From: Sediminihabitans luteus
Lineage (GTDB): Bacteria; Actinomycetota; Actinomycetes; Actinomycetales; Cellulomonadaceae
Length of the DNA stretch: 64,000 nt
NCBI RefSeq assembly: GCF_002797595.1
Contig: NZ_PGFE01000002.1
Span: 496,001 to 560,000, forward strand
Direction: 5' to 3'
The notes under the pieces were generated by a model. That model made no database searches. It saw only the letters and a program-made list of their open reading frames with translations, and was not told where the DNA came from. The first letter of the stretch is position 1; each line of letters begins with the position of its first letter. Below, piece by piece: positions 17,371-39,265 of this stretch. The position numbers and the translations under genes are program-made.

Positions 17371-17459
17371 GGGCCCTCGAGAAGGCCCCCGCCACCGCGT
17401 CCGATCGCGCGTCGGACCGCGCGTCCGGGGGCGACGAGAACCCCTGGAGGAATGCGCAC

Positions 17460-18620
17460 GTGAGCGACCTGTTCCCCGCACAGGGTCCTGCCCAGGACCC
17501 GGAGCCCGCCCCGGTCGGCCCGCAGCGGTCCGCGGGGCAGGAGGAGCGTCGCTCTCGCCGCCGCCGCACGCGGCGCCGTCGGCGCACGGTGCTCGCGGTC
17601 GTGCTGATCCTGGTGATCCTCGGCTGCGTCGGGTGGGTCGCGAAGGACCAGCTCGCCGGGCTCGTGGACGACGTGCGGCCAGGTGCGGCCGCGGACTATC
17701 CCGGCCCGGGCGAGGACCCGGTCTCGGTCACGATCGAGACGGGCGCGACGGGCGAGGACATGGGGGCCGCGCTGCACGACGCCGACGTGGTCGCCAGCAC
17801 CCAGGCGTTCGTCTCGGCCTTCCAGGACAACCCGCAGGCGGGACAGATCCAGCCGGGCACGCACGAGATGCTGACGAAGATGTCGGCCAAGGACGCGGTC
17901 GCGCGGCTCGTCGCCAACCAGAACAGGGTCGACATCAAGCTCACGATCCCTGAGGGCTTCACGGTCGAGCAGATCCTCGAGCGTGCCGTCGAGGTCACCG
18001 GGATCCCGCGCGACGCCTTCGACGCCGCGATGAAGGACCCGGACGCGACGGGTCTGCCCGCGCAGGCCAAGGGCAACTTCGAGGGCTGGCTGTTCCCGAC
18101 GACCTACTCGTTCGAGCCCGACGTGACCGCGACGCAGGCGCTGCAGCAGATGGTCCAGCAGACGCTCTTCGCTCTGTCGGACGCCGGCGCGAAGAAGGCC
18201 GACTACCAGGACGTCCTGATCGAGGCGTCGCTCATCGAGCGTGAGGCGAAGCGGGATGAGGACCGGCCCAAGATGGCCGCCGCGATCGACAACCGACTCG
18301 CCGCGGGGGACTACCTGCGCATCGACGCCTCGGTCGCGTACGGGGCGGGCAAGCCCGGGACCGAGCTCACGCAGAAGGACCTCGACGACGCGAGCAACCC
18401 GTACAACCTGTACGAGCACCCGGGGTTCCCGCCCGGGCCCATCGCGTCGCCCGGGCGGCCGTCGATCGACGCGGTCCTGCACCCCGCGGACGACGGCACG
18501 TATTACTACTTCTGGCTGACCGTGAACCTCGACACCGGCGAGACCGTGTTCAGCTCGACGCAGGCGGGGCAGGACGCCGCCGAGGCGCAGCTCGACGAGT
18601 GGCTCGAGGAGAACGGCTGA
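17460..18620 (+). CDS. mltG: Endolytic murein transglycosylase MltG, copy 1
   Basis: MltG cuts nascent peptidoglycan glycan strands at the membrane and helps set their length. The 386-residue product has a basic N-terminal cytoplasmic tail, one transmembrane helix at about 40-60, and a LysM-like region. The YceG catalytic domain shows EASLIERE (catalytic E260), DNRLAAGDYLRIDASVAYG and the substrate-groove GFPPGPIASPG. CTGGAGG precedes GTG 17460. It stands next to aroE, as usual, but is followed by a second copy. Confidence 0.93.
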   Translation: MSDLFPAQGPAQDPEPAPVGPQRSAGQEERRSRRRRTRRRRRTVLAVVLILVILGCVGWVAKDQLAGLVDDVRPGAAADYPGPGEDPVSVTIETGATGEDMGAALHDADVVASTQAFVSAFQDNPQAGQIQPGTHEMLTKMSAKDAVARLVANQNRVDIKLTIPEGFTVEQILERAVEVTGIPRDAFDAAMKDPDATGLPAQAKGNFEGWLFPTTYSFEPDVTATQALQQMVQQTLFALSDAGAKKADYQDVLIEASLIEREAKRDEDRPKMAAAIDNRLAAGDYLRIDASVAYGAGKPGTELTQKDLDDASNPYNLYEHPGFPPGPIASPGRPSIDAVLHPADDGTYYYFWLTVNLDTGETVFSSTQAGQDAAEAQLDEWLEENG

Positions 18621-18653
18621 CGGTCGGCCGTCGGCCCGCACGCGTCCAGCCGT

Positions 18654-18659
18654 TATCAT
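18654..18659 (+). promoter_or_regulatory. Candidate -10 (TATCAT) in the gap between the mltG copies
   Basis: TATCAT is close to the vegetative consensus and lies in an unusually AT-rich patch. A second candidate, TAGCGT, is at 18737-18742. Either would transcribe the second mltG separately from the first. Confidence 0.4.
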
Positions 18660-18802
18660 TCTGCAATCGCTTGTCCGTCGTCCGCCCGCTCCTCGGCGCG
18701 CGCACCCGGGTGTGCGGTGGTAGCCGGCCCGCGCGATAGCGTGGTCGGTGGACGGCGCCCCCGGCGCGCGACGTTGCGACGACCAGCAGGAGGACCCCGC
18801 TC

Positions 18803-19951
18803 GTGAGCGATCTGTTCGCAGGCACATCGACGATCGAGCGTGAGCCGGTCCAGGCCCCGTCGCGGTCGCAGGCCCAGCGCGAGCGCCGCGCGAAGCGGCG
18901 CCGCGCGCGCCGTCGTCGCCGCACCCTGCTGACGATGACCGTGATCGTGGTGCTCCTCGCGGGCGTCGGCTGGATCGCGAAGGACAAGGTCATGGGGCTC
19001 GTCGACGAGCTGCGCCCGTCGGCCGCGGCCGACTACCCGGGCCCCGGCGGGGACCCCGTCGCGGTGCAGATCGCGAGCGGCGCCACGGGCTCCGCGATGG
19101 CCGCCACGCTCGTCGACGCCGGCGTGGTCGCGAGCAGCGAGGCGTTCGTCGAGGCGTTCACCGCGAACCCGCAGGCGGCGCAGATCCAGCCGGGCACGCA
19201 CGAGATGCTCGCGGAGATGTCGGCGAAGGACGCGGTCGCGCGTCTCGCGGGCAACGAGCACCGCGTCGACCTGACGATCGCCGTGCCCGAGGGCTTCACG
19301 GTCGACCAGGTCCTGGCGCGCGCCGTCAAGGTCACCGGGATCTCGCAGGAGGACTTCGCCGCGGCCATGCAGGACACGGCGGCCACGGGGCTCCCGGCCG
19401 AGGCCGAGGGGTCGTACGAGGGCTGGCTGTTCCCCGCGACCTACACGTTCGAGCCCGGCGTCACCGCGACCGAGGTGATCGCGCCGATGGTCCAGCAGAC
19501 GAAGGCGGCGCTCGCGGAGGTCGGCGTCCCCGAGGCCGAGTTCCACGAGATCATCACCAAGGCGTCGCTCGTCGAGCGCGAGGGCGTGAACCCGGAGCAG
19601 TACGGCAAGATCGCGCGCGTCATCGAGAACCGGCTCGAGCGCGGCGAACCCCTGGGCCTCGACGCGATCGACTCGTACGGCCGCAAGAAGCCTGCTGACC
19701 AGATCACGAAGTCCGAGTTCAACGACACGTCCTTCCCGTACGCGTCACGCGTGGTCGCCGGTCTGCCGCCGACGCCGATCGGAAGTCCCGGCGCGGAAGC
19801 CATCGCGGCCGCCCTCAACCCGACCGATGGGCCGTGGCTCTGGTACGTGACCGTGAACCTCGACACCGGCGAGACGAAGTTCACCGACGACTACGACGAG
19901 TTCGGCGCGTACAAGCGCGAGCTCAACGCGTGGCTCGCCGAGAACCGCTGA
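18803..19951 (+). CDS. MltG paralogue, copy 2
   Basis: This 382-residue protein is clearly a tandem duplicate of its neighbour. It has the same MSDLF start, the same basic tail and helix, a near-identical PGTHEMLAEMSAKDAVARL stretch and the same PxGFTVDQVLxRAVKVTGI stretch. The catalytic glutamate is kept (KASLVERE, E258). The following segment has diverged: the usual D-x-T-V-x-Y-G becomes LDAIDSYGRKK, and the groove reads GLPPTPIGSPG. AGGAGGA precedes GTG 18803. It overlaps aroE by one base. It may be a specialised lytic transglycosylase. Confidence 0.9.
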   Translation: MSDLFAGTSTIEREPVQAPSRSQAQRERRAKRRRARRRRRTLLTMTVIVVLLAGVGWIAKDKVMGLVDELRPSAAADYPGPGGDPVAVQIASGATGSAMAATLVDAGVVASSEAFVEAFTANPQAAQIQPGTHEMLAEMSAKDAVARLAGNEHRVDLTIAVPEGFTVDQVLARAVKVTGISQEDFAAAMQDTAATGLPAEAEGSYEGWLFPATYTFEPGVTATEVIAPMVQQTKAALAEVGVPEAEFHEIITKASLVEREGVNPEQYGKIARVIENRLERGEPLGLDAIDSYGRKKPADQITKSEFNDTSFPYASRVVAGLPPTPIGSPGAEAIAAALNPTDGPWLWYVTVNLDTGETKFTDDYDEFGAYKRELNAWLAENR

Positions 19952-27882: not shown

Positions 27883-30117
27883 TCAGTGTGATGTGGCGTC
27901 GAGCGCCGCGGTGGCACGGTCGATCGCCTGGCGGACGTTGAGGGCCCCGGGCTCGTCGTCCATCTCCTCGCGCAGCCCGAGAGCCGCCCTGAGGTCGGCG
28001 ACACCTTCTACGTGTCGACCGAGCTGCGCTCGGGCCCGCCCGCGCAGCAGGTACGCGTTGGCCGTGAGTCGGGGTACGCCGAGCGGGACGGTCAGGTCGA
28101 CCGCGAGCGTCGCAGCGTCCTCGACCTCGGTCCACCGGCCCGTGGCGAGCAGGTTCTTGGCGAGGTAGACCTGCGCGTTCGCCTCGGTGAACCTGGCGAC
28201 CTCGGCGCGTGGCCGGGTCAGCGGGTCGGCGAGCGCGTCGATGACGGAGCGCACGACCTCGACCGCGGCGTCCGGGCTGCCGAGCTGGGCCTGGCAGTCC
28301 GCGACGAGGAGGAGCGCCTGCGGGAGTCCCTCGCGTTCGCCGACCGCGCGGAAGATCTCGGCCGCGCGGAGCCCGTCCGCGACGGAGTCGTCGAGCGACT
28401 CGCGCCGTCGCTTGCCGATCCAGGCGCGGTAGAGCAGCGCCCAGCCCTCCTGGCGGGCGTCGCCGCAGCGCCGGGCGGCCGCGAGGCCGACGTCGCAGGC
28501 CTCGCGCGCGCCCGCCGCGTCGTCGAGGCACTCCATCCGCGCCCATGCCAGGTATCCCTGGTGCGTCGCGACGAGCACGTCGTCCGCGAGGGCGGCCGCG
28601 GCGTCGGCCGAGGTGCGGTAGATCTCGGGCCAGGCCCGCCACACGGACCACAGGTCCGAGAACCAGTGCAGCGAGTCGGCGACGTCGACCACGGTTCGGT
28701 GGTCGCCGCGTTCTGCGGCGCGCCGGAACGCGGCGAGCCAGCTGTCGGACTCGTGCCGCAACCAGGCCATGGCCTCGGTCGTGGACCGCAGCATCGGGTC
28801 GCGCTCGGACGCGTCCCCGTCGGGCTCGAACCAGCGCCCGGCAGCCATGGTCGTGCTCAGGAGCCAACGGTCCGCGTCGTGCTCGAGCCGGGCGCGTGCC
28901 TCTGGCCCTTCCTGCGTCCGCATCCGGTGCGACGCGTACAGCCGGAGCAGGTCGTGGAGCTGGTACCGGTCGCCCGCGACGTGCTGCAGGAGCCCGAGCT
29001 CGACGAGCTCGTCGAGGATCTCCTCGGTACGCCAGAGGTCCTCCTGGGCCAGCGCGGCGGCGAGGCCGGGGCCGACGGTCGGGGCGGCGACGAGGGACAG
29101 GCGACGAAGCAGTCGTTGCGCGTCGGGGCCGAGCTGCTCGAAGGACGAGCCGAACGCGGCCCGCACGCTGAGGTCGCCGACCGCGAGGGAGTCGAGCCGC
29201 CGGTCCTCGACCGCGAGGCGGGCCGTGAGCGTCGCGATCGTCGTCCCCGGTCGGGTGCCGAGCCGGTTCCCGAGGATGCGCAGCGCGAGGGGCACCGCGC
29301 CGCAGAGCTCGACGACACGGGCCAGCGCGTCGTCGTCCGCGGTTCCCACGAGGCGGGCGAGGAGCGCGGCGGCGTCGGGCGTCGTCATCCGGTCGATCGT
29401 GACGCGGTCCACGCCCTCGAGCCCGGAGAGCCGGCGTCGGCTCGTCACGAGCACGGCCCCGGGCCCGTCGCTGCTGACGACGTCGCGTACCTGCTCCTCG
29501 GCACCGGCGTTGTCGAGCACCACGAGGACCTTCTGCGAGGCGAGGATCCGCCGGAGCCGTTCGAGCGCGTCGAGGGAGGTCAGTGGGACGGGGCTCGGGC
29601 TCAGCGCCTCGACGAGCCGCCGGGCGACGTCGTCCCGGTGCACGGGCTCGTCGTCCAGCCCGCGCAGGTCGACGAACGCGACCTCGTCGAAGTCGCCGCG
29701 GACGTCGTCGGCGACCCGGACGGCGAGGGTCGTCTTGCCGAACCCGGGCGGGCCGCTCAGGAGCACGGCGCGCGGGGCGGGGCCGCGCAGCAGCGCCGCG
29801 ACCGCGTTCCGCTCGCCGGCGCGACCCGTGAAGTCGGTGACGACGCGGGGCAGCGGCAGCGCGGGCGACGGGGGAGCGGTCGCGCGTCGTCGGCCCTCAC
29901 GGGCCAGACGCAGCAGCTCGGCGCGCTCGTCGGCGCCGACGCCGAGCGCGTCCGCGAGCAGGTCCACGGTCCGGCGCTGCGGGCCCCGGCTGGCGCCGCG
30001 CTCGATGTCCCCGATCGCCCGGTCGCTGACGCCGGAGCGTTCGGCGAGCGACTCGAGGGTCATGTCCAGCGCGGTGCGGTGGGCTCGCAGGAGCGCTCCC
30101 AGGCTCGTGTCCGTCAC
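27883..30117 (-). CDS. STAND regulator: XRE HTH, NB-ARC ATPase, TPR repeats
   Basis: A 744-residue signal-transduction ATPase. An N-terminal XRE-type helix-turn-helix (LESLAERSGVSDRAIGDIERGASR, residues about 20-45) is followed by an NB-ARC domain. That domain has Walker A LLSGPPGFGKTTLA (about 119-131), Walker B KVLVVLDNA and a GAVPLALRILG motif. A winged helix (LVELGLLQHVAGDRYQLHDLLRLYA) and C-terminal TPR-like helices follow from about 430. Proteins of this kind act as ligand-gated transcription factors. GTG 30117 has GGAGA six bases upstream. It is divergent from two alpha/beta hydrolase genes, its most likely targets. Confidence 0.88.
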   Translation of the reverse strand: MTDTSLGALLRAHRTALDMTLESLAERSGVSDRAIGDIERGASRGPQRRTVDLLADALGVGADERAELLRLAREGRRRATAPPSPALPLPRVVTDFTGRAGERNAVAALLRGPAPRAVLLSGPPGFGKTTLAVRVADDVRGDFDEVAFVDLRGLDDEPVHRDDVARRLVEALSPSPVPLTSLDALERLRRILASQKVLVVLDNAGAEEQVRDVVSSDGPGAVLVTSRRRLSGLEGVDRVTIDRMTTPDAAALLARLVGTADDDALARVVELCGAVPLALRILGNRLGTRPGTTIATLTARLAVEDRRLDSLAVGDLSVRAAFGSSFEQLGPDAQRLLRRLSLVAAPTVGPGLAAALAQEDLWRTEEILDELVELGLLQHVAGDRYQLHDLLRLYASHRMRTQEGPEARARLEHDADRWLLSTTMAAGRWFEPDGDASERDPMLRSTTEAMAWLRHESDSWLAAFRRAAERGDHRTVVDVADSLHWFSDLWSVWRAWPEIYRTSADAAAALADDVLVATHQGYLAWARMECLDDAAGAREACDVGLAAARRCGDARQEGWALLYRAWIGKRRRESLDDSVADGLRAAEIFRAVGEREGLPQALLLVADCQAQLGSPDAAVEVVRSVIDALADPLTRPRAEVARFTEANAQVYLAKNLLATGRWTEVEDAATLAVDLTVPLGVPRLTANAYLLRGRARAQLGRHVEGVADLRAALGLREEMDDEPGALNVRQAIDRATAALDATSH

Positions 30118-32520: not shown

Positions 32521-33693
32521 CTACGCCGGTCGGGCACCGCCACCGTCGCGCACCCGTGGGGTGTGCGGGTAGGCGGCGTCGCGGCCCTGGAAGGCCAGCA
32601 CGGCCGGGTTGCGCACGACGCCGTCGTGGATCTCGATCGCCCGGGAGATGGTCTCGTTCGACTCCCACGCCTCGCGCCCGCCCATCACGGTGCCGAGGAA
32701 CGGCAACAGCGCCGCGCTGATCTCCCAGGTCGCGGAGTTCCACAGGTACGACGGGCTGTGGTCGACGCCGTAGTACAGCACCCCGTCGCCGACGGTGAAG
32801 GTGGGCTCGTCGAACGTCGTGGGTCGCGCCCACGTGAAGCCCATGCCCTCGTCGCACGACACGTCGACGACGACCGTGCCGGGGGAGAGCTCGCCCAGGT
32901 CGTCGTCGGTCATGAACGTCAGCGGGGCCGCGACGTCCTGCAGCACGCAGTTGACGACGACGTCGTGCTCGCCGAGGAACGCGGGCAGCGGCACCCGACC
33001 CTCGGCCGTCACGGCGTGGCTCACGCGCTCGCCCGTGTGGTCGTCGTCGAGGTGCACGATCCGGGCCGAGTGGATCGGCGCGGCCACGGCGGCGACGTGC
33101 CGGTGCGTCAGGACGTCGACGTCGTGCACGCCGAGCGCGTCCAGCGCGGTCACCGCACCGCGCGCCGTCGCGCCGAACCCGATCACGACGGCGCGCAGTC
33201 GCGGCCCGTAGTCCCCGGCGATCCCCGCGAGCTGCATGGCGTGCAGCACCGAGCTGTACCCGGCGAGCTCGTTGTTCTTGTGGAACACGTGCAGGTTGAA
33301 CGCCCCGTCGCGGCTCCAGTGGTTCATGGCCTCGAACGCGATCAGGGTGAGCCGGCGGTCGATCGCGAGCTGCGTGATCTGCGGGTCCTGCACGCAGTGC
33401 GGCCACCCCCACAGCGTCTGACCCTCGCGCAGCTCGGCGACGTCGGCGGCCAGGGGCTTGGGTGCCAGGATCACGTCGCACCCGGCGAGGAGCTGCTCGC
33501 GCGTGCGCAGCCCGCCGACCCACGGCGCGACCTGCGCGTCCCGCAGCCCGAACCGCTCGCCGTACCCGTGCTCGAGGAACACGCGGGCCCGCAGGTCGTC
33601 CGGGATCTGGGCGAGGTGGCGGGGGTGCAGCGCGAGCCGCAGCTCGTTCTCCTTGCGCGAGTGCGCGACGACGCCGAGGGTGAGCGGGGTCAT
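32521..33693 (-). CDS. N5-(carboxyethyl)ornithine synthase-like opine dehydrogenase
   Basis: A 390-residue protein of the alanine dehydrogenase/PNT superfamily. The N-terminal domain reads LGVVAHSRKENELRLALHP and DVILAPKPLAADVAELREGQTLWGWPHCVQD, followed by HKNNELAGYSSVLHAM. The Rossmann motif is VVIGFGATARGAVTALDALG. These match carboxyethylornithine synthase, which condenses pyruvate with an amino-acid side chain using NADPH, better than alanine dehydrogenase. GGAGG precedes ATG 33693. The true amino-acid substrate is unknown. It is divergent from the glycosyltransferase cassette. Confidence 0.7.
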   Translation of the reverse strand: MTPLTLGVVAHSRKENELRLALHPRHLAQIPDDLRARVFLEHGYGERFGLRDAQVAPWVGGLRTREQLLAGCDVILAPKPLAADVAELREGQTLWGWPHCVQDPQITQLAIDRRLTLIAFEAMNHWSRDGAFNLHVFHKNNELAGYSSVLHAMQLAGIAGDYGPRLRAVVIGFGATARGAVTALDALGVHDVDVLTHRHVAAVAAPIHSARIVHLDDDHTGERVSHAVTAEGRVPLPAFLGEHDVVVNCVLQDVAAPLTFMTDDDLGELSPGTVVVDVSCDEGMGFTWARPTTFDEPTFTVGDGVLYYGVDHSPSYLWNSATWEISAALLPFLGTVMGGREAWESNETISRAIEIHDGVVRNPAVLAFQGRDAAYPHTPRVRDGGGARPA

Positions 33694-34001: not shown

Positions 34002-36368
34002 ATGAAGCGAAACCTGAGAGACATCTCCGTGACGCGCGCGGCTGCGTGGCGGCTGCGGGTCCTGGCCGAGCGGCTCTCGGGCGAGCGCCGCCGGCCCGCA
34101 CGCCGCCCCGGCGGGTCGTCGGACGACCTCGCGCTCACGCGCGCCGAGTGGCGCGACCAGGGCCCCACGCCCGCGCTGGTCGAGCGGGCCCGGTCGATGA
34201 GCCAGAACTCGGTCGCGTGGTCGGTGCTCCCGGCCCGGCTGTGGCTCGTGTTCGCGGGCGCGCTCGTCGAGGCGGGCGAGCACGAGCACGCGGAGCGGAT
34301 CGTGCGCACGTGGATGCGCCGCCGCGACGACGCCGACACGCTCGCGCTGTGCCTGCCCGTCGCGCAGTTCGCCCGCGACCTCGGCATCGGCGCGCGCCCG
34401 GTCGCGCGCGCGGCCGCCGCGGCCGACGTGCTCGCCGCGAACAGCGATGCCGACGTCGTCGGTGCGCTCGTGCGCCACGGCTCCGTCGCTGTCGTCGGCA
34501 ACGGCCCCGGCAACCTCGGCTCGGGACGCGGCGAGGAGATCGACGCGCACGACCTCGTGGTGCGGTTCAACAACTTCCCGCGCGGGTACGAGGCGGACTA
34601 CGGCTCCCGCACCGACGTGTGGGTTCGTGGGGCGCACCCGGACGTGCGCGACCGCGCCGGCATCGAGGACTTCTCGCTCGTGCTGTGGGAGATGGACGTG
34701 TTCCGCAACGTGCTCGAGCGGCCCGCGCACGGCGAGGTGCTGTACCGGGACACGCAGTTCGCGCCCGAGAAGATCGCGCACGTGGACACCCGCACCAAGG
34801 CCGCGCTGCGCTCGCGGTCGGGTCTGCTGCTGCCCACGAGCGGCGCGCAGCTGCTGTGGATGCTGCACGAGAGCCGTGGGTCGTTGCGCGACGTCGACGT
34901 GTACGGGTTCTCGACGGTCGACGGCACCGACGAGGTCGGGCACTACTTCGACGCGCTCGGGGACATGGGCACCCGGCACGACGTCTCGGGCGAGGGGGAG
35001 TTCCTGCGCGGGCTGCTCGCCGGCGTCGACCTGCCCGGCCCGGCGTCGTCCGCGGCCGGGCCCGGCGCGACGTCCGCCACCGACCCTGACGCCACCGACC
35101 GCGATGCCACCGACCACGATGCCGACGGCACCGTCGTGGTTGGGTGGGCGTACCGCCAGTACGACCCCGCGAACGGCAAGACTGGTGGGCCGGCCGGCGT
35201 GCTCGCGACCCAGCGCCTCGCGCTCGGGGACGACCTCGACGGTCGCCGGCTCGAGTACCGGTTCGACGACGGCGGCAAGGCTGAGCTCGCCGCACGGCTC
35301 GAGGTCCAGCTCACGGGCCTGAGCAGCAAGGTCGCCGACATCGTCCTGGGCGCCGAGGTGGTCCAGTGTGACCCGGACGTCGCCCGGTGGCGCGCCCAGG
35401 GGCGCACCCTGCTGTTCGTGTGCCACGACCTCGGGACGGCCTACGGCGCCCACCTGCTCGGCGTGCCCTACGTGCTCGTCTACCACCAGCAGGGCAGCAC
35501 CGTGCAGGAGATGCGGTCCAACGGGCGACGCCCCACCGCGCACGAGGAGCACGTCGCGCAGCGCCTCGAACGCGTCGTGCTCGAGAACGCGCAGCAGGTG
35601 TACTTCCCGAGCCTCGGCGCGCTCGAGACCTACCGCTCGACCGCCCGGATCGTGGACCCCGGCGCGATCGCGTTCGCCGACCGGGCGCTGCACAACACCG
35701 TGTCCGCCGTCGACCACGCCGAGGGTCAGGACCGCGCCGCCCAGCGCGCCGCGATCCGCCGTGAGCTCGACATCCCCGACGACGACGACGTGCAGGTGTT
35801 CGTCAGCGTCGGCGACTTCAACCACGACAAGGGCCTCGACCGGGTCCCGGACCTCCTCGACCGCTACGTGCGGCTCACCGGGCGCAAGGTGCTGTGGGTC
35901 GCGGTCGGCGGCGCGTCCGACCCGGCGCTCTTCGGGCGGCTGCGGGCCAAGCAGAAGAAGTGGCGCTTCGACGCACGCCTCGTGGGGGAGCGCATGACGC
36001 ACGACAAGCTCCTGGCTCTGCTCGACCTCGCCGACCACTACGTGATGCTGCACCGCAACGCGATCTTCGACCTCGCGACGCTCGAGGCGATGCGCGCCGG
36101 CAAGGCGCTCGTGCTCTCGCCCGTGGGCGGCAACCGCGAGGTCGACAAGGACTCCAACGTGCTGTTCGTGACCGACGAGACGCTCGACGACGCCTGCCGG
36201 GTGCTCGAGACCCGCGACCCGGTCGCCTGGGGCGAGCGCAACCGCCAGGTGTTCGACGAACACTTCAGCCTCGGCCGGTTCGCCGACAGCTACCGGGTGA
36301 TGATCGAGGAGAACCTCCGCGCGCTCGAACCCGCGACGAGCGAGCCGCTCGCGGCGGTCGCCTCGTGA
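34002..36368 (+). CDS. GT29 sialyltransferase-like / GT4-like fusion glycosyltransferase
   Basis: A 788-residue two-domain enzyme. Residues about 161-190 (VAVVGNGPGNLGSGRGEEID) match sialyl motif L of family GT29. Residues about 276-303 (LLPTSGAQLLWMLHE, VDVYGF) match motif S, and H314 (GHYFD) matches the very-short motif. After a linker of three ATDxD repeats, residues about 377-780 resemble a GT-B family 4 transferase (GWAYRQYDPANGKTGGPAGV, LEAMRAGKALVLSPVGGNRE). The first 150 residues are uncharacterised helices. It is coupled by GTGA to a pyruvyl transferase. Start ATG 34002 is uncertain; in-frame GTG codons lie upstream. Donor sugars are unknown. Confidence 0.75.
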   Translation: MKRNLRDISVTRAAAWRLRVLAERLSGERRRPARRPGGSSDDLALTRAEWRDQGPTPALVERARSMSQNSVAWSVLPARLWLVFAGALVEAGEHEHAERIVRTWMRRRDDADTLALCLPVAQFARDLGIGARPVARAAAAADVLAANSDADVVGALVRHGSVAVVGNGPGNLGSGRGEEIDAHDLVVRFNNFPRGYEADYGSRTDVWVRGAHPDVRDRAGIEDFSLVLWEMDVFRNVLERPAHGEVLYRDTQFAPEKIAHVDTRTKAALRSRSGLLLPTSGAQLLWMLHESRGSLRDVDVYGFSTVDGTDEVGHYFDALGDMGTRHDVSGEGEFLRGLLAGVDLPGPASSAAGPGATSATDPDATDRDATDHDADGTVVVGWAYRQYDPANGKTGGPAGVLATQRLALGDDLDGRRLEYRFDDGGKAELAARLEVQLTGLSSKVADIVLGAEVVQCDPDVARWRAQGRTLLFVCHDLGTAYGAHLLGVPYVLVYHQQGSTVQEMRSNGRRPTAHEEHVAQRLERVVLENAQQVYFPSLGALETYRSTARIVDPGAIAFADRALHNTVSAVDHAEGQDRAAQRAAIRRELDIPDDDDVQVFVSVGDFNHDKGLDRVPDLLDRYVRLTGRKVLWVAVGGASDPALFGRLRAKQKKWRFDARLVGERMTHDKLLALLDLADHYVMLHRNAIFDLATLEAMRAGKALVLSPVGGNREVDKDSNVLFVTDETLDDACRVLETRDPVAWGERNRQVFDEHFSLGRFADSYRVMIEENLRALEPATSEPLAAVAS
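35076..35120 (+). repeat. 15-bp tandem repeat encoding the interdomain linker
   Basis: Three 15-bp units beginning GCCACCGACC encode ATDPD, ATDRD and ATDHD. They lie exactly between the GT29-like and GT4-like domains. Slippage would change linker length in steps of five residues without breaking the frame. Confidence 0.8.
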
Positions 36369-37450
36369 AGCGCGCACTGTGGATCACGTGCGGGACCCGC
36401 GGCAACGCCGGCGACGCCCTGCTGCACGAGGTCACCCCCCGGCTCTTCGACGGACTCGTCGACCTCGACTTCCGTGCCGTGAGCGAACCCGCCTACCTGC
36501 GCCGCGGCGACACCCCCACCGACAACGTCGTGATCGGCCCCGGCGGGCTCTTCGTCCAGACCAACTCCTCACGGCACCTGCACGCCAAGCTCGCCAAGCA
36601 GTGGGACCGCTTCGAGTCCAAGAAGTTCTTCCTGTGGTCGACCGGCGTGCTCGAGCAGCCGTCCGACGCCGAGCTCCCCGCCGTGCGGCGCGTGACCGCA
36701 CGCGCACCCCGCATCGTCGTGCGCGCCACCAAGGAGGCCGAGCTCGTCCGCTCGATCGGACCCGTCACCTCACCCGAGTGGGCGCCCTGCGCCTCGCTGT
36801 TCACCGACCGGCTCCTCGACGTGCCCGACCGCACCCGCGACGTCGTCGTGCTCAACCTCGACTCGTTCCTGTTCACGCCGGACAACGCCGCCGACCACCC
36901 CCTGCGCCGGTTCGTCGACCACGCCCGCGCGCACGGGCTCGACGTGCGGTCCATGGTCAACGCCGCCGGCGACTTCAACCGATACCAGCTCGACATCGCA
37001 CCCCCGATCGAGATCGACGCCCGCCCCTTCGCCGACGCGCTCGACGACACCCTCGACGGCAAGGCGTTCCACCAGACCTACAACGCGGCGCTCGCGGACC
37101 ACCCCTCGTTCGGGGCGCGCTACACCGACTGCCGGTTCGCCTTCGGCAAGCGCCTGCACGGGTGGCTGCCGTTCCTGGCGTTCGACAAGCCTGCGGCGTT
37201 CGTCGGCATGGCGGCGCGGCGGGGGATGCCCCGCGACTACTTCGGCTCGGACGAGTTCCTGTGCGCGGTCCCGCGGCGCACCGGCATGTCGCGTCAGCAG
37301 CTCGAGACGATGGCCGACGCCATGATCGAGAAGCTCACGTACTTCATCGACCACGAGGACACGCTGACCAAGCAGATCGCCGAGCGGCGCGAGGAGCTGT
37401 GGCAGCAGCTCACGCGCCAGGCCGCGGGGTTCGCGGACGCTCTCGCCTGA
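36365..37450 (+). CDS. Polysaccharide pyruvyl transferase family protein
   Basis: A 361-residue protein of the family that moves pyruvate from phosphoenolpyruvate to form a ketal on surface sugars (CsaB-like). Features are CGTRGNAGDALLHEVTP at the N-terminus, NVVIGPGGLFVQT, FFLWSTGVLEQ, a PEWAPCASLF segment and KRLHGWLPFLAF with the conserved Arg-Leu-His-Gly. GTG 36365 overlaps the glycosyltransferase stop, so both are made together and probably act on the same glycan. Its 3' end overlaps the convergent kinase-like gene by 41 bp. Confidence 0.85.
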   Translation: MKRALWITCGTRGNAGDALLHEVTPRLFDGLVDLDFRAVSEPAYLRRGDTPTDNVVIGPGGLFVQTNSSRHLHAKLAKQWDRFESKKFFLWSTGVLEQPSDAELPAVRRVTARAPRIVVRATKEAELVRSIGPVTSPEWAPCASLFTDRLLDVPDRTRDVVVLNLDSFLFTPDNAADHPLRRFVDHARAHGLDVRSMVNAAGDFNRYQLDIAPPIEIDARPFADALDDTLDGKAFHQTYNAALADHPSFGARYTDCRFAFGKRLHGWLPFLAFDKPAAFVGMAARRGMPRDYFGSDEFLCAVPRRTGMSRQQLETMADAMIEKLTYFIDHEDTLTKQIAERREELWQQLTRQAAGFADALA

Positions 37451-37826
37451 GCCCTTGAACGGTCGGCGCTGCGGCGGACGGCGCGAGGGACGCGGCCACG
37501 GCGCGGGCGGTGTGCTGCGGCGTGCTGCCCGCGGTGAGCACGACCCCGGTCGCGACCTGGCGCGTCAGGGGCTCGTCGAGCCACCTGGCGAGGAAGTCGT
37601 GCCCATCCGCCGTCCAGGTGGTGCCCTTGGTCTCCAGGCACCGGCGCCGCAGCACCGCGTACGCGGCGTCCCGGTCCTGGCACGGCAGCACGAGGCGGAC
37701 GTCGGGGCAGGCGGCGAGCACGCGCGCGACCTCCCGGCCGTGGGCCGGGTCGGTGTACGACGTGTGACCCGCCCCGAGCGCGACGACCGCCCCGGGCGAC
37801 CGCGTCACGACGCGCCGCGCGCTCAC
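37410..37826 (-). CDS. Shikimate-kinase-like fragment lacking the P-loop
   Basis: A 138-residue frame that resembles the C-terminal two-thirds of small shikimate-kinase-like nucleotide kinases: VVALGAGHTSYTDPAHG, VRLVLPCQDRDAAYAVLRRRCLETKG, HDFLARWLDEPLTRQVATGVVLTAG. The ATP-binding P-loop and first strand are missing, and the intact MFS gene lies immediately upstream, so the missing part is not encoded nearby. GTG 37826 overlaps the MFS stop by four bases, suggesting it is still translated. It is either a 5'-truncated relic or a non-ATP-binding derivative. Confidence 0.55.
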   Translation of the reverse strand: MSARRVVTRSPGAVVALGAGHTSYTDPAHGREVARVLAACPDVRLVLPCQDRDAAYAVLRRRCLETKGTTWTADGHDFLARWLDEPLTRQVATGVVLTAGSTPQHTARAVAASLAPSAAAPTVQGLRRERPRTPRPGA

Positions 37827-39265
37827 GGTGCCTCGGGCGCCGGCGGGGCGTCGGCCGTCGGCACGGCGACGTCCCGCCGTCCGCCCACGCCCCGGCCCGC
37901 CGGAAAGCGCACGCCGAGCAGCAGCACCAGGCCGACGGCGATCACGGCCACGATGCCGAGGATCCCCCAGTACTGGGCCCCGCCGAGCGCGATCGCGGTC
38001 GAGAACGCCAGCGGCGCCAGGAAGCTCGCCGCGCGTCCCGTCGTCGCGTACAGGCCGAACGCCTCGGCCTCGGCGCCCGGGTCGCTCAACCGTGCCAGCA
38101 GCGCACGGCTCGCCGACTGCGCGGGCCCCACGAACGCCGTCAGCAGCAGCCCCCACACCCAGAACGCGCCCGCCCCGCCGTCGTGCAGCACGAACACCGC
38201 GACCCCCGCGACCACGAGGCCCACCAGGGCCACGACCACGACCCGGCGCGGACCGATCCGGTCGTCGAGCCAGCCCGCCGCGATCGTCGACGCCCCCGCG
38301 ACCAGGTTCGCCGCGATCGCGAACACGATCACCTCGCCCGCGTCGAACCCGAACGTGCCCGCCGCGATCACCGCCCCGAACGTGAACACCCCGGCCAGGC
38401 CGTCGCGGTACACGGCGCTCGCGACGAGGAACCACAGCGTCGAGCGGCGTGTGCGCCACAGCCGGGCCACGTCCCGACCCAGGCGCCGGTACGCGTCGAG
38501 CACCCCCGGGCGGGACCCCGAGGCGGCGGGCGTGCCCGGCGCGGGGGAGCTCACGCGCTCGGGCACCGCGAGCATGACCGGCACCGCGAACACCGCGAAC
38601 CACACCGCCGACAGCACGACCGACACCCGGATATCCATGCCGTCCTCGCCCGTGACGCCGAACCACCCGACGTCGGGGTCGATGAACCCCACGAACAGGA
38701 TCAGCAGCAGCACGATCCCGCCCACGTACCCCGCGCCCCACCCGATCCCCGAGACCCGACCGATCGTGCGCGGCGTCGAGATCTCCAGCAGCAGCGCGTT
38801 GTACGCGACCGACGCGAGCTCGAAGAACACGTTGCCCACCGACAGCAGCACCACGCCCAGGATCACCGCGTCCGCCCGCGACCCCGGCGTGGGGGACACC
38901 GCGAACATCGCCAGCATCGCCGCGACCGTCGCCGCCGTGTTGACGCCCAGCCACACCTTGCGCCGACCCTGCGCGTCCGCCAGCGCCCCCAGGGCCGGCG
39001 CGAGCACCGCGATCAGCGCACCCGCCGCCGTCAGCCCCCAGCCCAACCACTGCGTGTGCTGCGCCGTGACGGCGTCCGCGTCCGCACCCGCCTCGACGAA
39101 CGCGTCGGACGTCAACCACACCGTGAACACGAACGTCGTGACCACCGCGTTGAACGCCGCCGACCCCCAGTCCCACGCCGCCCACGCGATCACCCGCCCC
39201 CGGGCGGTACGACGACCCACGAGGGGTCCGGCAGTGGTCGGCGTCACATCAGCGTGGTCAGGCAC
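37823..39265 (-). CDS. MFS transporter, UMF1/Atg22-like
   Basis: A 480-residue protein with about 12 transmembrane helices. The start WAAWDWGSAAFNAVVTTFVF is the UMF1/Atg22 signature. A LADAQGRRKVWLG loop marks the MFS helix 2-3 motif, and a cytoplasmic loop of about 50 residues separates the halves. Family members export amino acids or peptides in fungi; bacterial substrates are unknown. GTG 39265 follows a TAGCAT -10 by six bases (leaderless). It is divergent from aroQ, 80 bp apart. Confidence 0.88.
   Translation of the reverse strand: MPDHADVTPTTAGPLVGRRTARGRVIAWAAWDWGSAAFNAVVTTFVFTVWLTSDAFVEAGADADAVTAQHTQWLGWGLTAAGALIAVLAPALGALADAQGRRKVWLGVNTAATVAAMLAMFAVSPTPGSRADAVILGVVLLSVGNVFFELASVAYNALLLEISTPRTIGRVSGIGWGAGYVGGIVLLLILFVGFIDPDVGWFGVTGEDGMDIRVSVVLSAVWFAVFAVPVMLAVPERVSSPAPGTPAASGSRPGVLDAYRRLGRDVARLWRTRRSTLWFLVASAVYRDGLAGVFTFGAVIAAGTFGFDAGEVIVFAIAANLVAGASTIAAGWLDDRIGPRRVVVVALVGLVVAGVAVFVLHDGGAGAFWVWGLLLTAFVGPAQSASRALLARLSDPGAEAEAFGLYATTGRAASFLAPLAFSTAIALGGAQYWGILGIVAVIAVGLVLLLGVRFPAGRGVGGRRDVAVPTADAPPAPEAP

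Follow-up and report, generated by a model that had tools for sequence, protein, structure and literature searches.

Which product could be made in Sediminihabitans luteus by a protein that joins a sialyltransferase domain of family GT29 to a second, GT4-like glycosyltransferase domain, and whose gene overlaps that of a polysaccharide pyruvyl transferase-family protein? We addressed this question for a window of 64,000 nucleotides (C2:496001-560000) of the 3.42-Mb genome, in which these two genes form a cassette. Residues ~125-350 of the fusion protein are GT29 by profile, sequence and predicted structure, the cassette is conserved in related genomes, and a pathway for nonulosonic acids is present in the genome and linked to GT29 across the family. 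Our findings point toward the idea that the cassette probably builds part of an anionic surface glycopolymer of the teichulosonic acid type, in which the GT29 domain would add ketodeoxynonulosonic acid (Kdn), the GT4-like domain would add a hexose and the pyruvyl transferase would ketalise the product. The features on which this proposal is based are the following:

34002-36368, plus strand: gene for a putative bifunctional glycosyltransferase of 788 amino acids (ATG at 34002, stop at 36366-36368), with an N-terminal helical region, the GT29 domain, a linker and the GT4-like domain
34002-34373, plus strand: N-terminal helical region, amino acids 1-124, conserved with the fusion, with no Pfam family and a low-confidence model
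34374-35036, plus strand: GT29 sialyltransferase domain, amino acids 125-345 (PF00777, profile against the PDB, model, Foldseek and VIA-align)
34485-34625, plus strand: sialylmotif L, amino acids 162-208, with D181, D184, R188 and N190 unchanged in all 49 aligned bacterial GT29 domains
34827-34910, plus strand: sialylmotif S, amino acids 276-303, with G281 and G302-F303 invariant
34941-34952, plus strand: sialylmotif III, H314-Y-F-D, placed by alignment
34977-34994, plus strand: very short sialylmotif (VS), H326-x4-E331, invariant in the 49 bacterial domains, H326 being the expected catalytic base
35127-36326, plus strand: GT4-like domain (GT-B, Glycos_transf_1), amino acids 376-775 (PF00534/PF13692, alignment, GlgA/BshA-like PDB matches)
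36365-37450, plus strand: polysaccharide pyruvyl transferase-family gene, 361 amino acids, with a GTG start, a 4-bp GTGA overlap with the stop of the fusion and an invariant K262-R-L-H265

The start of the fusion at ATG 34002 is confirmed by its orthologues, since the same Met opens three complete ones that align throughout at 70, 69 and 70% identity. A sequence-only reading of this DNA had described the frames, the GT29-like and GT4-like domains and the 4-bp overlap as we find them, and had placed motif L (~162-208 by our analysis) and motif S (276-303) correctly. It erred in taking H314 for the VS His; this residue belongs to motif III, whereas VS has its His at position 326, followed by E331.

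The assignment to GT29 is carried by several lines of evidence. The PF00777 match exceeds the curated cut-off (E=1.7e-12, 47.7 bits vs 23), and a search with the single sequence of the domain finds the mammalian sialyltransferases ST6GalNAc2, ST3Gal1 and ST6Gal1. Iterated searching of the loci analysed returned 57 bacterial matches, and an alignment of 49 rows, the one from the window included, yielded a profile that reaches ST3Gal1 in the PDB (E=6.7e-20), with a match that spans almost all of the domain. The domain model built with these 49 diverse rows is confident, with a predicted local distance difference test score (pLDDT) of 89.5 and a predicted template modelling score (pTM) of 0.89. 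All 30 Foldseek matches of this model below E=0.001 are GT29 structures (best E 7.7e-7), and VIA-align superposes it on GT29 structures with Z 12.8-14.9 over 185-202 residues (root-mean-square deviation 3.3-4.2 A), values above those obtained with CstI/CstII of GT42 (Z about 7.6-9.4). The profile and structure searches that the sequence-only reading had proposed as a check thus place residues 125-350 inside GT29. Chance resemblance of the motifs is ruled out by profile, fold and conservation.

The key residues of motifs L, S and VS are invariant in the 49 rows (D181, D184, R188, N190, G201, G281, G302, F303, H326 and E331), motif III not being kept in group 2; in the GT29 family, the His of VS serves as catalytic base (PMC10225777). 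These data bear on a reading in which the GT29 domain would be a degenerate or structural leftover, with the GT4-like domain and the pyruvyl transferase as the only active parts. The domain is indeed smaller than the solved animal enzymes, but its motif residues, H326 and E331 among them, are invariant, the pairwise ratio of nonsynonymous to synonymous substitution rates (dN/dS) is about 0.3-0.4, also over the GT29 domain, and in the genomes searched GT29 occurs only where NeuB does, which makes a remnant highly improbable. In a tree of bacterial GT29 domains, the fusions from actinobacteria group in a single clade (99/99), with other bacterial domains around it; this tree is confined to bacteria and is hence silent on transfer from eukaryotes. 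The sequence-only reading needs a further amendment: bacterial GT29 sequences were catalogued already in 2018 by authors who could not predict their function (PMC5811610). Separately, we observed a divergent group of GT29 genes (L036:8927-12669, with similar genes in the g4/g9 genomes) that lack the His of motif III; in L036 a gene for a GT8-pyruvyl transferase fusion comes after it.

What would the donor of such a domain be? The whole genome holds one NeuB and one CTP_transf_3 (PF02348) match, both in the same 720-amino-acid frame (C1:158786-160948, minus strand; L004/L005). This frame encodes a fusion of NeuA, a KdsC-like phosphatase of the HAD family and NeuB, and lies on another contig than the cassette, so that the search for nonulosonate genes elsewhere in the genome, which the sequence-only reading had called for, came out positive. 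The NeuA-phosphatase-NeuB arrangement places the route from synthase to activation with cytidine monophosphate (CMP) in one chain, NeuB being a separate gene in Microbacterium and in genome G188. It is neighboured by two DUF6716 genes, two GT2 genes and one gene of unassigned product, and the same neighbours are met again in related genomes, whether their NeuA-HAD and NeuB are fused or separate. The DUF6716 genes, annotated as putative glycosyltransferases (L004:14882-16135 and 17422-18702), accompany NeuA/NeuB in many related loci, and their products may be further nonulosonate transferases.

This pathway is associated with GT29 in the family. NeuB is found in 18/18 GT29-positive family genomes vs 46/204 GT29-negative ones (pooled P 2.7e-11; within-genus product 2.7e-7), P values that treat genomes as independent and serve as a guide only, the genus sizes being lower bounds. 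All six further GT29-positive genomes of the order have NeuB as well, giving 24/24 tested. NeuB is also common in genomes without GT29, which is what one would expect if the donor serves further transferases. A nonulosonate is well supported as the predicted donor class of GT29.

Within this class, Kdn is the most likely donor sugar, as we infer from the KdsC/Kdn-phosphatase-like domain, the lack of NeuC and the pyruvylated Kdn polymer of the Promicromonospora citrea wall, 6)-aGlc-(1-6)-aGlc3S-(1-4)-a-7,9Pyr-Kdn-(2- (PMC6801904). The middle HAD domain is closest to KdsC-type and Kdn-9-phosphate phosphatase models, all under equivalog cut-offs, and structures, and whole-genome family searches found no NeuC in S. 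luteus, its sole UDP-GlcNAc 2-epimerase being WecB (463 bits). The same features uphold the "nonulosonic acid such as Kdn" of the sequence-only reading. A donor of the N-acetylneuraminic acid (Neu5Ac), legionaminic or pseudaminic type would agree with the NeuB part, which scores best with a Neu5Ac-type synthase model and less with PseI, both under cut-off; yet the missing NeuC and the phosphatase-like domain of the fusion enzyme speak against it, as does the presence of Kdn in the actinobacterial teichulosonic acids known so far (PMC11481543, PMC6801904), and we hold such a donor to be quite unlikely. Ketodeoxyoctulosonic acid (Kdo) was also considered and rejected: the genome has no separate KdsB, its only CTP_transf_3 match is the NeuA part, and there is no sign of CMP-Kdo. 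In addition, adenylyl-sulfate kinase genes (L108:1423-3843; L107:16310-17608) were seen, one adjoining wecB in S. luteus and one near the NeuA/NeuB locus of G188; these genes may be in keeping with the sulfated Kdn polymer described for P. citrea.

The cassette itself is not a peculiarity of one genome. GT29 is detected by Pfam in 18/222 family genomes, five of which, S. luteus included, carry the fusion, and the two-gene cassette is conserved in the four others with flanking genes that differ between genera; two of the carriers are Cellulosimicrobium species, C. terreum and C. marinum. In Luteimicrobium album (L026/G164), the fusion (L026:7900-10700) is spread over several frames, pointing to a disrupted gene or assembly errors, and the NeuB match is partial too (completeness 81%). 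More distant fusions occur in Microbacterium and in a Lachnospiraceae metagenome-assembled genome. In M. fluvii (L048) the fusion is surrounded by neuB, neuA-HAD, a DUF6716 gene and a pyruvyl transferase; in M. paludicola (L049) neuA-HAD overlaps the stop of the fusion and is followed by neuB; in a further locus (L097) fusion, neuA-HAD, neuB and pyruvyl transferase all lie within 7.6 kb; and in the Lachnospiraceae genome (L052) neuB, a second GT29, the fusion, the pyruvyl transferase and neuA-HAD stand in a row. Conservation with differing flanks, the dN/dS values and the existence of distant fusions argue that the cassette is not a product of chance.

The second domain of the fusion exceeds the curated cut-offs of PF00534 (E=1.4e-9, 38.2 vs 26.4 bits) and PF13692 (35.2 vs 27 bits), and H475, H495, K610, D690 and E695 are invariant across the fusions of Actinomycetota and Lachnospiraceae and the separate gene of Azospirillum CAG:239. 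Its sequence matches in the PDB are weak, to GlgA and BshA only, and a full-length model of the fusion from four close sequences is poor (pLDDT 45).

The partner protein appears to be a divergent relative of PF04230, for which pyruvate transfer is predicted. Its 55% identical homologue in L097 passes the cut-off of this family with 34.6 bits, and the KRLH of residues 262-265, in the C-terminal part, is invariant in eight orthologues. Among the 222 family genomes it is present in exactly the five that carry the fusion, a sixth match being marginal (E=7.6e-4). In a separate GT29 group of the family, the gene downstream of GT29 encodes a GT8-PS_pyruv_trans fusion (L036) or PS_pyruv_trans alone (L029), and the occurrence of pyruvyl transferases beside GT29 genes in separate groups makes the two a recurring pair. 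In this regard, the pyruvyl transferase could act on the hexose or on a separate galactan rather than on Kdn, and P. citrea does have a 4,6-pyruvylated galactan (PMC6801904); the repeated position after GT29 genes and the absence of the cassette enzyme from family genomes without the fusion nevertheless make this rather unlikely.

These findings allow us to propose a model in which the NeuA-phosphatase-NeuB protein would supply a CMP-activated nonulosonic acid, most likely Kdn. The GT29 domain would put Kdn on a hexose with inversion (alpha), with H326 acting as the base and CMP bound by motifs L, S and III, and the GT4-like domain, of retaining type, would add a hexose to Kdn from a nucleotide-sugar donor. 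One chain could in this way supply both bonds of a hexose-Kdn repeat, as the meningococcal W/Y polymerases do for hexose-Neu5Ac, and the pyruvyl transferase, made by translational coupling, would attach pyruvate as a ketal to the product, with Kdn as the probable site. The acceptor, the hexose and the position and target of the ketal are those that we infer; alternating addition by the fusion would follow from analogy with the W/Y enzymes. A pyruvylated Kdn polymer is the most likely product. We further suggest, tentatively and as a doubtful extension, that the fusion is a processive Kdn/hexose copolymerase, an independent invention of the W/Y plan with an animal-type sialyltransferase, and that its partner represents the first known case of a pyruvyl transferase with a nonulosonic acid as substrate.

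The main rival of alternating synthesis holds that the chain contains two single-step transferases, acting on a lipid-linked repeat or a side branch, with a separate polymerase or an ABC route. It draws on the second conserved nonulosonate locus of the family, with its GT2, DUF6716 and other transferases, and on the repeat of P. citrea, whose two glucoses mean that one fusion would not make the whole repeat alone. Against it, the two domains of the fusion have stayed together in a single polypeptide in different phyla, a design shared with the W/Y polymerases, and we judge this rival unlikely.

Several observations weigh against the pyruvylated Kdn polymer model as a whole. The S. luteus cassette does not stand beside the nonulosonate genes, which have candidate transferases of their own (DUF6716, GT2), and the synthase scores of the NeuB part leave Kdn unproved. 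The second Glu of the EX7E motif, E695, is kept in the second domain, whereas the first is replaced by Ala687 (Ala or Ser across relatives); its activity or donor may accordingly be unusual. Because of this replacement we call the domain GT4-like rather than GT4, and the "three activities" that the sequence-only reading ascribed to the cassette stay predicted. The PF04230 match of the second protein, full-length and weak, is below cut-off (20.9 vs 25.3 bits). Among the relatives, the L049 locus lacks a pyruvyl transferase, and in Azospirillum CAG:239 (L055) GT29 and GT4 are encoded by two separate genes, with no neuB nearby. Finally, the pyruvylated Kdn polymer is known from P. citrea and the cassette from its relatives, and the case for S. 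luteus is built on genes, models and comparisons.

The setting of the cassette offers no clear sign of recently acquired foreign DNA, since the guanine plus cytosine contents of the fusion (73.2%) and of the pyruvyl transferase gene (70.6%) are close to that of the window (74%). Both plus-strand genes are flanked by an AlaDh/PNT-like gene (minus, 32521-33693) and an MFS transporter gene (minus, 37823-39193 or -39265). Judging from the translations, housekeeping genes (hisS, aspS, alaS, aro genes, efp, nusB, pyrR/B/C and metK) make up most of the window. Elsewhere in it, two tandem YceG/MltG-family genes (17589-18620 and 18935-19951), 54% identical to each other, lie between a RuvX-like gene and aroE, and a 744-amino-acid regulator with HTH and NB-ARC ATPase domains (27883-30117, minus) shares the 25-34 kb stretch with alpha/beta-hydrolase genes.

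The cassette gives bacterial GT29 genes, left without a predicted function in 2018, a function that can be tested. The association of GT29 with a CMP-nonulosonate pathway and with pyruvyl transferases suggests a role in wall polymers of pyruvylated Kdn, and the literature found names no enzymes for the assembly of such polymers or for their ketal. The cassette also offers a GT29 enzyme of bacterial origin that may be a one-chain copolymerase and could serve chemoenzymatic synthesis, and the locus makes a case for comparing two independent routes to hexose-nonulosonate polymers. No paper linking GT29, GT4 and pyruvyltransferase was found in the open-access literature.

Among known systems, the closest in product are the teichulosonic acids of S. 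coelicolor and P. citrea, which place Kdn in actinobacterial walls and, in P. citrea, pyruvylated Kdn next to alpha-glucose. Kdn is contained in the teichulosonic acid of Streptomyces (PMC11481543), that of S. coelicolor is ascribed to the gene region SCO4873-SCO4882 (PMC13011467), and Cellulosimicrobium, a carrier of the cassette, belongs to the same family as P. citrea. In the literature found, the transferases of these two Kdn polymers are not assigned and a GT29-GT4 cassette is not mentioned. With the PF04230 enzymes the second protein shares a weak full-length profile match and the invariant K-R-L-H; it differs from them in being divergent, in falling below threshold on its own and in its substrate, probably a nonulosonate, and a review table names no enzyme for nonulosonate substrates. 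With the CAZy GT29 enzymes ST3Gal1, ST6GalNAc2, ST8SiaIII and ST6Gal1 the first domain has in common its predicted fold and the sialylmotifs L, S, III and VS, including the catalytic His; unlike them, it has no Cys in motif L, is fused to a second glycosyltransferase and probably uses CMP-Kdn. By inspection alone, without transmembrane prediction, no signal-anchor region was recognised in the fusion.

In its plan, the fusion most resembles the meningococcal W/Y polymerases, which likewise combine a hexosyltransferase-type domain and a CMP-nonulosonate transferase domain in one chain, MenW being a GT4 joined to an inverting CMP-NeuNAc GT97 (PMC10361700). As its sialyltransferase domain is GT29 and not GT97, the fusion is an analogue rather than a member of that group, from which it is further set apart by the reversed order of its domains, the actinobacterial wall context and the linked pyruvyl transferase.

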